A stretch of DNA of 64,000 nt from Bacteroidota bacterium (GTDB lineage Bacteria > Bacteroidota > Bacteroidia > Bacteroidales > NBLH01): the NCBI GenBank assembly GCA_025361565.1, contig JANYKN010000196.1, positions 1 through 64,000 of the forward strand, given 5' to 3'. The notes under the pieces were generated by a model. The model saw only the letters and a list, made by a program, of their open reading frames with translations, did no database searches and was not told the origin of the DNA. The translations under genes and the position numbers were made by a program. Below are positions 22,497 through 56,473 of the stretch, one piece after another; position 1 is the first letter of the stretch; each line of letters opens with the position of its first letter.

Positions 22497-22628
22497 AGGT
22501 GTAGAAATAATTAGTTATAGAAGTACTTCGAAATAGAAATAATAATCAATATTCAATTATTGATTGTTAAATATACGAAAAAATCGAGAAGTGTAATCGG
22601 AATTATTAAGAATGGATGGAAATAAAAA

Positions 22629-22732
22629 GTGGGTAAGCTACTTATATCGCACCGCTACAACCACCTACCCTTGCTACCTTCCGGTCCTGGGGGAGTTCAG
22701 TAGGAGCTGGTCGTATAAGACTTACCCGGCAC
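22629..22732 (-). ncRNA. ffs: Small bacterial signal recognition particle RNA (4.5S-like)
   Basis: Minus strand carries AGGACCGGAAGGTAGCAAGGGTAGG (SRP tetraloop-domain signature CCGGAAGGNAGCA) inside a long hairpin with closing arms GUGCCGGGUAAG.../...CUUACCCAC. Confidence 0.9.
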
Positions 22733-22838
22733 AAAAGTAACAATTCTTTTTTTTACTCCAAATTTTATTGAATAATAAAGTATAATTCTTTACTTTGTGC
22801 AATCAAATGCTCTAATCTATAACCAAATTTTTAATATT

Positions 22839-51091: not shown

Positions 51092-51124
51092 AAAAGGGGC
51101 TGCAATTCGCAACCCTTTTTTATT
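51092..51124 (+). terminator. Terminator downstream of ilvC
   Basis: AAAAGGGGCTGCAATTCGCAACCCTTTTTTATTTTT. Confidence 0.75.
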
Positions 51125-51168: not shown

Positions 51169-51194
51169 GCTTCGGTTGCTGAGCTTGTCGAAGC
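51169..51194. repeat. Short palindromic REP-like unit
   Basis: GCTTCG-GTTGCTGAGCTTGT-CGAAGC; 3' part TTGCTGAGCTTGTCGAAGCACTAATTTCCAA repeated at 51830-51860. Confidence 0.65.
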
Positions 51195-51207: not shown

Positions 51208-51750
51208 TCAGTCCTCAAGAATTTCGTAAGCAGCATTTTTTTCACGGATGTGGATTTCCAGATCTTTCATCGGTTTGGCCATTGCAACTCTTCCTGTTCT
51301 TATAAACTGAAGTATGCCATATGGTTTTAATTCTTCCATCAATTTTTGGGTATCAGCTTTATGACCTGTTTTTTCTATTAAAATATAATCGTTTTCAATA
51401 TTTAAAACACGAGCATTATGTGTTCTCACAACCGATTCTATTTGCAATCCTTTTTCAATGGCCGATATTGGAAGTTTGTACATAGCCAATTCCTGATGTA
51501 TAATCTCATCGTTTTCATAAACAAATACTTTGATAACTCCGATTATGTTTTCGAGTTGTTTAGCAACCCTGTCGATAACATCACGTCTTGTTTTAATAAC
51601 AATTGTGAAACTATAAATACCCTTTATTTTTGATTCGGATACCGTTAAGCTTTCAATATTAAGCTTTCTCCTTGTGAAAACAATGGAAAGATGATTGAGT
51701 AATCCAATATTATTTTCAGTGTTTACAAGGAGTGTAAATTCTTTTTCCAT
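51208..51750 (-). CDS. ilvN: Acetolactate synthase small (regulatory) subunit
   Basis: EFTLLVNTENNIGLLNHLSIVFTRRKLNIESLTVSESKIKGIYSFTIVI, ACT-domain regulatory subunit. Confidence 0.9.
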   Translation of the reverse strand: MEKEFTLLVNTENNIGLLNHLSIVFTRRKLNIESLTVSESKIKGIYSFTIVIKTRRDVIDRVAKQLENIIGVIKVFVYENDEIIHQELAMYKLPISAIEKGLQIESVVRTHNARVLNIENDYILIEKTGHKADTQKLMEELKPYGILQFIRTGRVAMAKPMKDLEIHIREKNAAYEILED

Positions 51751-51829: not shown

Positions 51830-51860
51830 TTGCTGAGCTTGTCGAAGCACTAATTTCCAA
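51830..51860. repeat. Second copy of the REP-like unit (5' arm decayed)
   Basis: TTGCTGAGCTTGTCGAAGCACTAATTTCCAA, matching 51177-51206. Confidence 0.6.
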
Positions 51861-51875
51861 TGACCAATTACCAAA

Positions 51876-53612
51876 TTACGGTTCCAAAATAATATCAGAT
51901 ACCGAAGCACCCGATGGTACCATCGGAAATACATTATCTTCTTGTTCTACTTCTACTTCGAGTAAATAGGGTCCATCAAAATTAAACATTTTATCAATAG
52001 AATTCTTTAATTCGTCCCTGGTATTTATTTTGGACGATTCTATTCCATTGCCTTTAGCAATCATTTGAAAATCAGGATTAACCAGGGTTGTAAATGAATA
52101 TCTGCGTTCATGAAATAATTGTTGCCACTGTCGCACCATGCCTAAAAAACCATTGTTTAAAAGCACTATTTTTACTGGTCTTTTGTGTTGCCATATGGTA
52201 GCAAGTTCCTGGATAGTCATCTGGATACCACCATCACCAACAAACACAACTACCGGACGTTTGTCTTGCCCCATAGCTGCACCAAATGCGGCAGGCACAC
52301 CAAATCCCATGGTCCCAAGTCCACCTGAGGTTATCATACTTTTTGTATGGGCAAACTGATAATACCGGGCTGCCATCATTTGATGCTGTCCAACATCAGT
52401 TACAACAATTGCTTCACCTTTAGTTCTTTCAGATACCTGGTGAATAACTTCGGCCATTTTAATTTGTCCGGCTTTAGGATGTATATCTTTCTGTATTATT
52501 TTTTCAAACTCAATGGCTTCAAGTTTCTTGAATTCTTCTAGCCATTCATCATGAACATTGGTTTTTACCATTGGGATTAGTTGTTGCAATGCTTTTTTTG
52601 CATCCGAGATAATCGCCACATCTGCTTTGATATTTTTATCAATTTCAGCCTGATCAATATCAATATGGATAACCTTGGCTTTTATTGCATATCTCGATGT
52701 ATCACCGGTTACACGGTCGTCGAATCGCATTCCTATCGCTATGATTAAATCAGCCTCATTGGTCTGAATGTTGGGTGCATAATTGCCATGCATACCAAGC
52801 ATCCCTGCGTAAAGTGGGTGTCTGGTCGGAAATGTCGATAATCCTAGCAATGTACAACCTACTGGAATACCAGTTTTGTTAACAAATGCTGTTAGTTCTT
52901 CTTCTGCCCCGGCAATAGAGATACCATGTCCTGCCAATAGTAAAGGTTTTTTTGCATTATTGATTAGGTTGGCAGCTTCCCGTATTTTTTCAGGATTAGT
53001 TTTCGGATTTGGAAAATATCCGGAAACCTGATGCACTCTTTTATAGGTAAAATCAATGAATTGATTTTGAGCATCTTTAGTGATGTCTATCAATACTGGT
53101 CCAGGTCTTCCGGATGATGCAATATAGAATGCTTTTGCCATTACTTCAGGAATTTCAGCAGCTTTAGTAACCTGATAATTCCATTTTGTAACAGGCATAG
53201 AAATACCAACAACATCAGTTTCCTGAAAAGCATCGAAACCTAACAAGTGCGAAGGTACCTGTCCTGTAATACATATCATTGGAATAGAATCAATCTTTGC
53301 GTTCGATAATCCAGTAATCAGGTTTGTTGATCCTGGCCCCGAAGTGGCAAATACAATACCTGGTTTATCAGAAGTTTTAGCATAGCCTTGTGCCATATGT
53401 GTTGCTCCTTGTTCGTGACGCACCAGAATATGTTCAATTTTATCCTGATAATCATAAAGTGCATCATAAATCGGCATGATTGCTCCACCTGGATATCCAA
53501 AAATGGTATCAACACCTTCATGCAACAAGGAGAGGATGACCGCTTCTGAACCTTTAACGGTTTTAGCTGTTTCTGTTTTTGTTTCCTCTTTTAAATCTGT
53601 CTTGGTTTCCAT
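51876..53612 (-). CDS. ilvB: Acetolactate synthase large subunit, biosynthetic
   Basis: GSEAVILSLLHEGVDTIFGYPGGAIMPIYDALYD...GDGGIQMTIQELATI. Confidence 0.95.
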   Translation of the reverse strand: METKTDLKEETKTETAKTVKGSEAVILSLLHEGVDTIFGYPGGAIMPIYDALYDYQDKIEHILVRHEQGATHMAQGYAKTSDKPGIVFATSGPGSTNLITGLSNAKIDSIPMICITGQVPSHLLGFDAFQETDVVGISMPVTKWNYQVTKAAEIPEVMAKAFYIASSGRPGPVLIDITKDAQNQFIDFTYKRVHQVSGYFPNPKTNPEKIREAANLINNAKKPLLLAGHGISIAGAEEELTAFVNKTGIPVGCTLLGLSTFPTRHPLYAGMLGMHGNYAPNIQTNEADLIIAIGMRFDDRVTGDTSRYAIKAKVIHIDIDQAEIDKNIKADVAIISDAKKALQQLIPMVKTNVHDEWLEEFKKLEAIEFEKIIQKDIHPKAGQIKMAEVIHQVSERTKGEAIVVTDVGQHQMMAARYYQFAHTKSMITSGGLGTMGFGVPAAFGAAMGQDKRPVVVFVGDGGIQMTIQELATIWQHKRPVKIVLLNNGFLGMVRQWQQLFHERRYSFTTLVNPDFQMIAKGNGIESSKINTRDELKNSIDKMFNFDGPYLLEVEVEQEDNVFPMVPSGASVSDIILEP

Positions 53613-53627
53613 AAGTGTAATTTTAAA

Positions 53628-55460
53628 CTAGTCAATTATTCTAACTGCGCCTTTATCGGCTGATGAAACTAACAATGAATATGCTCTTAATGCTTTTGAA
53701 ACCTTTCTTGGTCTGATCTTCGCAGGTTTAAATGCATTTTGGCCTTTTAGTTGTTCTTCTGCTCTTCTGGTATTAAGTTCCTGATCCGAAATGAGCACAT
53801 TTATCTTGCGTTCCGGAATGTTGATCTCAATTTTATCTCCATTTTTAATGAGTGCAATTTCTCCACCTGAAGCCGCTTCTGGTGAAACATGGCCAATAGA
53901 TAAGCCTGATGTGCCTCCAGAGAATCTACCATCTGTGATTAATGCACAATATTTATCAATTTTTATAGATTTCAAATAGGAAGTAGGATAAAGCATTTCT
54001 TGCATACCTGGGCCTCCTTTGGGGCCTTCATATCGGATAATGATTACATCGCCTTTTTCTATTTTTCCGTTTAAAATAGCATTTACTGAATCTTCCTGTG
54101 AATCATAAACTTTTGCATTTCCTGTAAATATAAGAATGCTTGCATCTACACCTGCGGTTTTTACAATACATCCATTTTTTGCAATATTTCCATACAGAAC
54201 TGCCAGGCCTCCATCTTTGCTGTAAGCGTTCGCAATATTGCGGATACAGCCTTTTTCGCGATCCAAGTCCAACAAAGCTCTGGTAGATTGAGAGGCTAAC
54301 TTAAGATTCCGTCCATTATTGGCAGCTGCACTTCCATAAATATCAAAAGCCTTGTCTATAGCTGTTTCTCGTTTGATATCATAACTATTTATAGCATCTT
54401 TCAAAGTAGGAAAATCGATTCGACTTGCTGTAGTGTCCAGTAATCCATGACGTTCCAATTCTCCCAATATGGATAAAATTCCACCTGCATTATTTACATC
54501 TTCTATGTGATAATGCGAGCTAGGAGCTACTTTGCAAATATTAGGCACTTTACGTGAAAGCTGGTCAATATCGTTCATTGTAAAATCAACGCCTGCTTCA
54601 TTTGCAATTGCCAATAAGTGAAGAACGGTATTTGTACTGCCCCCCATGGCTATATCCAGTGTCATTGAATTTAAAAAAGCTGATTTTTTAGCAATATTCA
54701 ATGGAAGAACTGATTGTTCACCTTGATAATAATGTTTTTCAGTAATTTCTACCAGCATTTCGGCTGCTTCTCTAAATAAATTTTTCCGGTTTTCGTGAGT
54801 GGCAACAATGGTTCCATTTCCTGGTAAACCAAGGCCAAGTGCTTCAACCAGGCAATTCATTGAATTTGCTGTAAACATACCTGAACAGGAACCACAAGTT
54901 GGGCATGCGTTTTTCTCAATTTCTTCAATTTCTGTATCCGAAATATTTGCATCCACGGCCATAACCATAGCATCAACCAAATCAATTTTTTTATTAATTT
55001 GAATTCCAGCCTCCATTGGACCTCCTGATACAAAGATTGTTGGAATATTCAATCGCATGGCAGCCATCAACATTCCAGGTGTAATCTTATCACAATTACT
55101 AATGCAAATCAACGCATCTGCCTGATGGGCATTACACATATATTCAACACTATCGGCAATAATTTCGCGCGACGGAAGTGAATATAACATACCATCGTGA
55201 CCCATTGCAATACCATCATCAATAGCTATGGTATTAAATTCAGCTGCAAAATACCCTTTTTCTTCAATGACGGACTTGATGAATTGTCCTACTCCATGCA
55301 AATGTGCATGACCCGGAACAAACTGTGTAAAAGAATTTGCTATTGCAAAAATAGGTTTACCAAATTGGCTGTCTTTTACTCCATTTGCACGCCAAAGACT
55401 TCTTGCACCTGCCATTCTTCGGCCTTTTGTACTTGTGTCACTTCTTAAATTAATTTTCAT
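53628..55460 (-). CDS. ilvD: Dihydroxy-acid dehydratase
   Basis: [39 protein letters not shown]...[34 protein letters not shown]...[20 protein letters not shown]. Confidence 0.96.
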
Positions 55461-55475
55461 TTTTCTAATTTATGG

Positions 55476-55510
55476 TAAAAAAAAAGCGCCATCCCTGTAG
55501 GAATGGCGCT
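55476..55510 (-). terminator. Intrinsic terminator/attenuator upstream of ilvD
   Basis: Minus strand AGCGCCAT-TCCTACAGGG-ATGGCGCT followed by U9 (plus strand A 55477-55485), about 16 nt before the ilvD ATG. Confidence 0.88.
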
Positions 55511-55536
55511 CGACTTTATATTCTAAAATCTTTACA

Positions 55537-55608
55537 TCATTCCCATCTACTTGCTATGACAATAACAAATACCAGCACACTGCTAAGAATGACGTTAAAA
55601 ACTTCCAT
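55537..55608 (-). CDS. Putative ilv operon leader peptide MEVFNVILSSVLVFVIVIASRWE
   Basis: ATG at 55608, TGA at 55537-55539; 11 of 23 residues are Val/Ile/Leu; located just upstream of the terminator and ilvD. Confidence 0.8.
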   Translation of the reverse strand: MEVFNVILSSVLVFVIVIASRWE

Positions 55609-55813
55609 AAAATTATTCAATACTATATTTCAAAACTCGATGTAAAAATACAGCTATTTTTTTTTAAAAAACAAACTTATTTTTGTAATATTTTTAATTA
55701 TTTATATAAGTTTCAATAATACAGTATGTTACAATTATATTTTATTTATTTAATATTATTCAATTTGATTTATTTTTCAAGATAGATTACATTTATGCCC
55801 TATTTTATATTAT

Positions 55814-56473
55814 ATGACTAAAAATATTTTAAGGGGGCTTTATTTATTGGGGGTAGGACTTATTATTTTTCTATTTTTTCATTTCCAACTAAATAACTAT
55901 TTCAACGTTGATAATATTGAAAAAGTAAAAGTTCTTTTTCTTGGATTAGGGAATTGGGGGTTACTTTACATGATTTTAATTCATATAGTGCTCAATATTA
56001 CCGCTATTCCTCGTGTCTTTTTTACCATTTTTGCAGGATATGTTTATGGAGTATTCATAGGTTTTATTTTCTCCTGGATTGCAACAATGGCAGGGCTTAT
56101 TGTTACTTTTTTAATGGTAAGGTATTTATTTCGCCAAAGTTTTGACAAAAAATTTGGATCAAAGAAAGTGGTGAAGAAGATTAATCGGCAGGTTGATAAA
56201 TATGGAATTTGGATTGTTGTTTTTTTAAGGGCAATATATGTTGTTCCTTCTTCAATTTTAAATTATAGCTTCGGTTTTACTAAAATTAAAACCAAAACCT
56301 ATTTTATAGGTTCTGCTATTGGTTTTATACCTGTGGTATTGCTAAATGTTTGGGCAGGAAATGCGCTGGCTAAGAATTTATTTAATGGATTTCATTATCA
56401 TATTATTATTTTTGGCTTTGTTCTACTTTGCCTTTTTTATTTTTCAAAATATCTTTCAAAGAAATATGTTTGA
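55814..56473 (+). CDS. TVP38/TMEM64 (VTT/SNARE-associated) family membrane protein
   Basis: FTIFAGYVYGVFIGFIFSWIATMAGLIVTFLMVRYLFR...VVFLRAIYVVPSSILNYSFGFTKIKTKTYFIGSAIGFIP. Confidence 0.85.
   Translation: MTKNILRGLYLLGVGLIIFLFFHFQLNNYFNVDNIEKVKVLFLGLGNWGLLYMILIHIVLNITAIPRVFFTIFAGYVYGVFIGFIFSWIATMAGLIVTFLMVRYLFRQSFDKKFGSKKVVKKINRQVDKYGIWIVVFLRAIYVVPSSILNYSFGFTKIKTKTYFIGSAIGFIPVVLLNVWAGNALAKNLFNGFHYHIIIFGFVLLCLFYFSKYLSKKYV

Follow-up and report, generated by a model that had tools for sequence, protein, structure and literature searches.

A predicted ribosome-mediated attenuator upstream of ilvDBN and its counterparts in Bacteroidales

The ilvDBN operon and its leader region

The window, meaning the whole 64,000-nucleotide stretch analyzed here, belongs to a 6.76-Mb draft assembly of 199 contigs and encodes the branched-chain amino acid (BCAA) genes ilvD, ilvB, and ilvN in series on its minus strand. 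A Bacteroidales small SRP RNA found in it, together with relatives that include Saccharicrinis, Labilibaculum, Odoribacter, and Bacteroides, assigns it to Bacteroidales or their close vicinity. The genes, together with a short open reading frame (ORF), a hairpin, and a candidate promoter found upstream of them, are as follows.

55643..55675, minus strand: candidate Bacteroidota-type promoter, with TTTG at 55675-55672, a 21-nt spacer, and TATTTTTA at 55650-55643
55537..55608, minus strand: predicted leader peptide ORF encoding MEVFNVILSSVLVFVIVIASRWE, with a TGA stop at 55539-55537; a Val/Ile/Leu (V/I/L)-rich ORF is likewise placed in most Bacteroidales examined
55477..55511, minus strand: predicted intrinsic terminator, with a 12-bp stem, 4-nt loop, and nine U (−20.7 kcal/mol)
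53628..55460, minus strand: ilvD, dihydroxy-acid dehydratase, first gene of ilvD-ilvB-ilvN (NCBIfam NF009103, 1021.6 bits; TIGR00110, 779.8 bits)
51876..53612, minus strand: ilvB, acetolactate synthase large subunit (TIGR00118, 718.8 bits)
51208..51750, minus strand: ilvN, acetolactate synthase small subunit (TIGR00119, 99.5 bits, above cut-off)

NCBIfam also names ilvC, which lies on the plus strand and is convergent with ilvDBN, while the nearest gene upstream of the leader (55814-56473) is on the opposite strand and divergent. An 18-nt repeat, TGCTGAGCTTGTCGAAGC on the plus strand, is present in the ilvN-ilvC gap (51177-51194) and again in the ilvB-ilvN gap (51831-51848), and looks like a dispersed intergenic repeat.

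The minus-strand ORF comprises 23 codons (ATG GAA GTT TTT AAC GTC ATT CTT AGC AGT GTG CTG GTA TTT GTT ATT GTC ATA GCA AGT AGA TGG GAA TGA), its stop is separated from the ilvD start by 76 nt, and V/I/L account for 11 of the 22 residues that follow the initiating Met. Within the terminator, the stem-loop proper occupies 55511-55484 and contains seven G-C pairs, a run of nine T follows at 55485-55477, and the distance from the stem-loop to ilvD is about 23 nt. Terminator-like sites are more numerous here than in shuffled sequence (two within 1.2 kb, against 0.6 ± 0.7 expected). An earlier note on this DNA, made from the letters alone, had described most of this anatomy: its ORF was recovered with identical letters and coordinates (55608-55537), its tally of 11 V/I/L residues was borne out, its ilvD ATG is indeed at 55460, its naming of ilvDBN agrees with NCBIfam, and its hairpin with U9 is present, with limits (55510-55476) that were one base off from those measured (55511-55477). 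A whole-window scan for leader-terminator pairs returned one other match, a Ser-rich ORF near 51118 that lies in a repeat and was taken as chance.

The Bacteroidota −7 promoter box has the form TAnnTTTG, and TATTTTTA, which carries one mismatch to it, is the best candidate for this box in the window. Of 103 relatives with a leader ORF, 74 have an exact TAnnTTTG in the 90 nt that precede the leader start, mostly 24-51 nt from it, compared with 5.9% in shuffled sequences.

Conservation of the leader among relatives

Relatives of ilvD were gathered from the same genus, from the order, and from named genomes including Saccharicrinis, Labilibaculum, Odoribacter, and Bacteroides, and about 520 nt upstream of each ilvD was searched for a short ORF whose end is fewer than 75 nt from a downstream hairpin with G-C pairs and a U-run. 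Such a leader-terminator pair is present in 116 of 148 Bacteroidota upstream regions, and the V/I/L score exceeds that of dinucleotide shuffles (p < 0.05) in 99 of the 148, with 46 at the floor of p about 0.005; since the set includes related genomes these counts are not independent events, although the matches span many families. In other phyla, any ORF-terminator pair was found in two of 41 regions and a V/I/L-scoring one in 0 of 41. Taken alone, the V/I/L content of the window leader is marginal against dinucleotide shuffles (p about 0.04), and the comparison of sequences across relatives lifts this signal far beyond chance. The non-scoring Bacteroidota regions, about a third, reflect partly the limits of the finder and partly apparent absence: leaders are visible by eye at three loci that the finder missed (L019, L025, and L028), and upstream of ilvD at two others (L007 and L009) a leader appears to be lacking.

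Closer to home, each of the four other ilvD-bearing congeners shows the leader, as does the closest other family. It is also present in Odoribacter laneus (L141), a cultivable relative. The nearest congener encodes MKVFNVILTIVVVSIIIVIDRWE, another congener MQKFQVIVILVVISILQKMQTGRMM, and more distant relatives MKALLSNIILVVVVVLVVARSWVENGIA and MLYNIVTVVVVDVIQ. At codons 3, 11, 12, 15, 17, and 18 the DNA differs from that of the nearest congener, whose ilvD is 84% identical, and V/I/L identity is kept, while residues other than V/I/L drift freely among relatives. The frame and its V/I/L codons thus persist despite varying DNA, where their loss in relatives had been named by the earlier note as grounds for rejecting a leader peptide.

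Across the 103 leaders, V, I, and L together account for 54% of the 2333 residues, against 9% for F, A, M, G, and W combined. A membrane peptide is expected to mix V/I/L with F, A, M, G, and W; therefore, the constraint on these leaders is V/I/L identity rather than hydrophobicity. Codon choice is skewed as well. GTC supplies 45% of leader Val codons versus 11% of those in the accompanying ilvD genes, CTA supplies 20% of Leu codons versus 4%, and CTC (Leu) is also favored in the leaders of relatives relative to ilvD. The pair GTC-ATT occurs 38 times, versus 21.6 in codon-order shuffles (maximum 33), and because it recurs above these shuffles part of the GTC excess may serve RNA pairing. The GTC and CTA/CTC bias possibly reflects the choice of control codons, pairing by strand 1 (below), or both.

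The arrangement varies among lineages. In two loci (L006, genome G022; L002, genome G005) an extra 100-230 nt separates an intact attenuator terminator from ilvD and is apparently a later insertion; in L002, sequence similar to TGCTGAGCTTGTCGAAGC lies in this interval. Four loci (L016 in G317, L061 in G222, L074 in G365, and L125 in Labilibaculum sp. K2S) carry two complete V/I/L leader-terminator modules in series before ilvD, which in L061 encode MRNLNNIILSIIIILVVVIP and then MNTTLIIIVVVIILILIRT and in L016 are near-identical copies. If the serial modules act in this way, a two-stage attenuator gate would be an unusual arrangement. The ilvD relatives found beyond the order belong to another type, roughly 35% identical. 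By inspection, several loci of the same class outside Bacteroidales (L231, L232, L234, L240, and others) have V/I/L ORFs before terminators, for example MQISIIITSVVVVNVIHTSASGML and MLLWVINNVIIVLVGLIPHP, which suggests that the leader arrangement extends beyond the order.

Alternative RNA structures and ribosome position

Three segments of the leader RNA can be assigned to the strands of a putative switch, strand 4 being the partner with which strand 3 would form the terminator.

55587..55595, minus strand: strand 1, ACGUCAUUC within codons 5-8, which pairs with GAAUGAUGU at the leader stop to give a candidate protector helix
55534..55545, minus strand: strand 2, UGGGAAUGAUGU, covering codons 22-24 and the next 3 nt, the 5′ half of the antiterminator
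55498..55511, minus strand: strand 3, GAGCGCCAUUCCUA, the terminator 5′ arm and loop edge, in which CAUUCCUA pairs with UGGGAAUG

The earlier note had pointed to GGAATG at the leader end (55543-55538) and CATTCC in the terminator arm (55505-55500) as complementary words. Both are present and complementary, and their pairing grows to 8 bp (UGGGAAUG/CAUUCCUA) with an inner 3-bp stem and a 7-bp side hairpin. In relatives, the segment that pairs with the terminator arm typically straddles the leader stop, and the complementary words vary by lineage, from GGGAATG/CATTCC here to GTGAGAATGG/CCTTTCTCAC, TCGGTATG/CATGCCGA, and CCGGGAAGTT/AACTTTCCGG. Because different lineages use different complementary words, strands 2 and 3 have changed together. 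Strand 2 pairs with the terminator 5′ arm of its own locus at a mean of −16.1 kcal/mol, compared with −11.6 kcal/mol for arms from other genomes; permutations of these swaps have a standard deviation of 0.26, and the lowest of 10,000 reaches −12.6 kcal/mol. Leader ORFs likewise favor strand 2 of the same locus over a swapped one (−14.1 versus −11.8, permutation standard deviation 0.26).

Nascent RNA was folded with strand 4 still unmade and with the edge of the ribosome set 13 nt past the start of the A-site codon, an assumed value. In these models of the window leader, an antiterminator of −16.9 to −15.6 kcal/mol forms with the A site at codon 11, 13, 16, or 18; with the ribosome at the stop codon no antiterminator forms, and the free RNA is unstructured. 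Antiterminator and terminator are thus alternative folds, and the proposal of the earlier note that a stalled ribosome frees GGAATG, while one at the stop masks it, holds in silico. Across the 103 leaders, the terminator arm is expected to form 12.2 upstream pairs with a ribosome stalled amid the V/I/L codons versus 2.7 with one at the stop, and the difference exceeds three pairs in 100 leaders.

The behavior of an untranslated leader is less like the textbook. In textbook attenuators, untranslated leader RNA terminates because strands 1 and 2 pair. Here, the 1:2 helix belongs to the minimum free energy fold of the full leader, whereas with no ribosome and strand 4 unmade the 2:3 pairing is preferred (8.9 expected antiterminator pairs). 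Since 1:2 does not clearly prevail while strand 4 is unmade, basal readthrough of untranslated RNA may be high, unlike in the textbook trp case.

The genome has a second such layout ahead of hisG, made up of a His leader, MTKTHSHIHHHHLLLSGELFV, and a terminator (L198, 2115-2300, minus strand), with a TATATTTG box upstream. Its nascent RNA is predicted to form an antiterminator of −11.0 kcal/mol with the ribosome at the last His, and none with the ribosome at the stop. No leader-terminator pair was found before ilvC in the window, nor around leuA (L199) or a trpE/pabB-like gene (L203), and so, of the loci checked in this genome, ilvDBN and his alone show predicted attenuation.

Interpretation, alternatives, and related systems

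Judged from sequence comparison and modeled folding, the ilvDBN leader is very probably a ribosome-mediated transcription attenuator, as the earlier note had proposed; the conserved V/I/L frame, strand co-variation, and folding support this reading, and a promoter-like box lies upstream of the leader. RNA polymerase would start upstream of the leader ORF with a ribosome close behind, making the 23-residue peptide. With ample supplies of charged Val, Ile, and Leu tRNA, the ribosome would reach the UGA and cover UGGGAAUGAUGU, leaving strand 3 to pair with strand 4 as a terminator, and transcription would end before ilvD. A shortage of any of the three would stall the ribosome in the V/I/L codons, and the exposed UGGGAAUG would pair with CAUUCCUA before strand 4 exists, such that no terminator forms and ilvDBN is transcribed. 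The sequence anatomy, the coding conservation, and the joint change of strands 2 and 3 were observed here, as was, in silico, the dependence of folding on ribosome position; we infer that the ORF is translated, that stalling depends on tRNA, and that readthrough is controlled in vivo.

Other readings of the locus explain parts of this evidence. The ORF might encode a small hydrophobic membrane protein or toxin-like peptide, with the hairpin as its own terminator and no role in ilvD control; a 23-residue peptide whose core is hydrophobic could cross a membrane, and a terminator does directly follow the ORF. We regard this as highly improbable, as composition is limited to V/I/L in the manner described above, the other residues drift while the location ahead of ilvD is retained, terminator arm and stop-codon region co-vary, and the his operon has a His-rich counterpart. 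That the hairpin instead terminates a transcription unit lying upstream, with the short ORF a product of chance, accords with the usual role of intergenic hairpins with U-tracts as gene terminators and with the marginal V/I/L content of the single sequence. Its probability is nevertheless negligible: the gene at 55814-56473 is divergent and on the opposite strand, so the hairpin is not its terminator, no minus-strand gene ends there, and the conservation of the arrangement in relatives already refutes this explanation.

Two further possibilities keep the hairpin or the leader as a regulatory element and change its mode of action. A translation-independent riboswitch, T-box, or protein-binding RNA could use the hairpin as its expression platform, with a coincidental V/I/L pattern, and the nascent leader does fold an antiterminator without a ribosome. 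We consider it extremely unlikely, given that the coding pattern is kept over many families despite divergent RNA sequence and that the ilvD leader region matches no Rfam family, T-box included, at the gathering threshold, nor credibly at looser ones. A GibS match over the region (34.9 bits versus a cut-off of 115, E 0.17) was treated as chance, Rfam matches at related ilvD loci are sub-threshold only, and the only match at the gathering threshold in the whole window is the Bacteroidales small SRP at 22627-22734. The leader could also act mainly on translation, by reinitiation or by exposing or hiding the ilvD start; leader genes near a structural gene can boost its translation through reinitiation, and for Bacteroidetes a peak lies at 11-14 bp (PMC4833913). 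In this case the distance from leader stop to ilvD start is well outside that peak, and what is conserved is a U9-bearing intrinsic terminator, which in several relatives lies 100-230 nt from ilvD; together these make an effect mainly on translation extremely improbable.

Ribosome-mediated attenuation is textbook knowledge in Proteobacteria and is known in Actinobacteria, and BCAA leader-peptide attenuation is established in Enterobacteria. Like the enterobacterial attenuators of ilvGMEDA, ilvBN, and leuABCD (ilvL, ivbL, and leuL), the arrangement here consists of a short V/I/L-rich ORF with a biosynthetic operon downstream, a leader stop close by the antiterminator segment, 2:3 and 3:4 hairpins that exclude each other, and a U-tract; it differs in that ilvD comes first, the promoter is of the Bacteroidota type, the protector helix is less clear, and no sequence family is shared. 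A leader ORF and terminator also lie directly upstream of ilvD in Staphylococcus aureus, where peptide and terminator mutants relieve repression, although that peptide is Leu-dominated rather than mixed V/I/L, the operon is also controlled by CodY, and the proposed antiterminator, unlike the one here, retains the terminator stem while capturing the poly-U tail (PMC5794164). BCAA leader attenuation is backed by reporter data in Corynebacterium, whose ilvB-II motif, like the ilvB-OMG motif, places a BCAA-codon-rich uORF before an ilv operon, ilvB-II with a terminator stem (PMC10272879); these motifs precede ilvB in other bacteria, and the leader region here matches no Rfam model. The Bacteroid-trp motif (RF01692; PMC2864571) is similarly a predicted Bacteroidetes cis-regulatory RNA named for an amino acid operon, but concerns Trp rather than V/I/L and has no match in the leader studied here.

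A 2010 survey stated that no amino-acid leader peptides were known outside Proteobacteria and Actinobacteria before its own Firmicutes finding (PMC2965389), and a transcriptome map of B. thetaiotaomicron goes no further than describing sORFs as “reminiscent of” leader peptides (PMC7366714). The literature searched yielded no account of such BCAA attenuation for Bacteroidales, and an earlier prediction may be contained in Lopatovskaya et al. 2010. The ilvDBN leader is thus apparently a widespread and uncatalogued case of a mechanistically familiar leader-peptide attenuation. We further propose, tentatively and as a reading that is plausible but falls somewhat short of probable, that BCAA leader-peptide attenuation is ancestral and general for Bacteroidales ilvD operons, and probably for other Bacteroidota, forming an undescribed class with GTC/CTA-skewed control codons and, in some lineages, two-stage gates. 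If this is true, it would add an undescribed class to a phylum with few known cis-regulatory switches. Independently of this, the leader occurs ahead of ilvD across most of the Bacteroidales examined, among them gut genera, which provides a directly testable rule of amino acid control and makes many Bacteroidales 5′ regions and sORFs annotatable by function.
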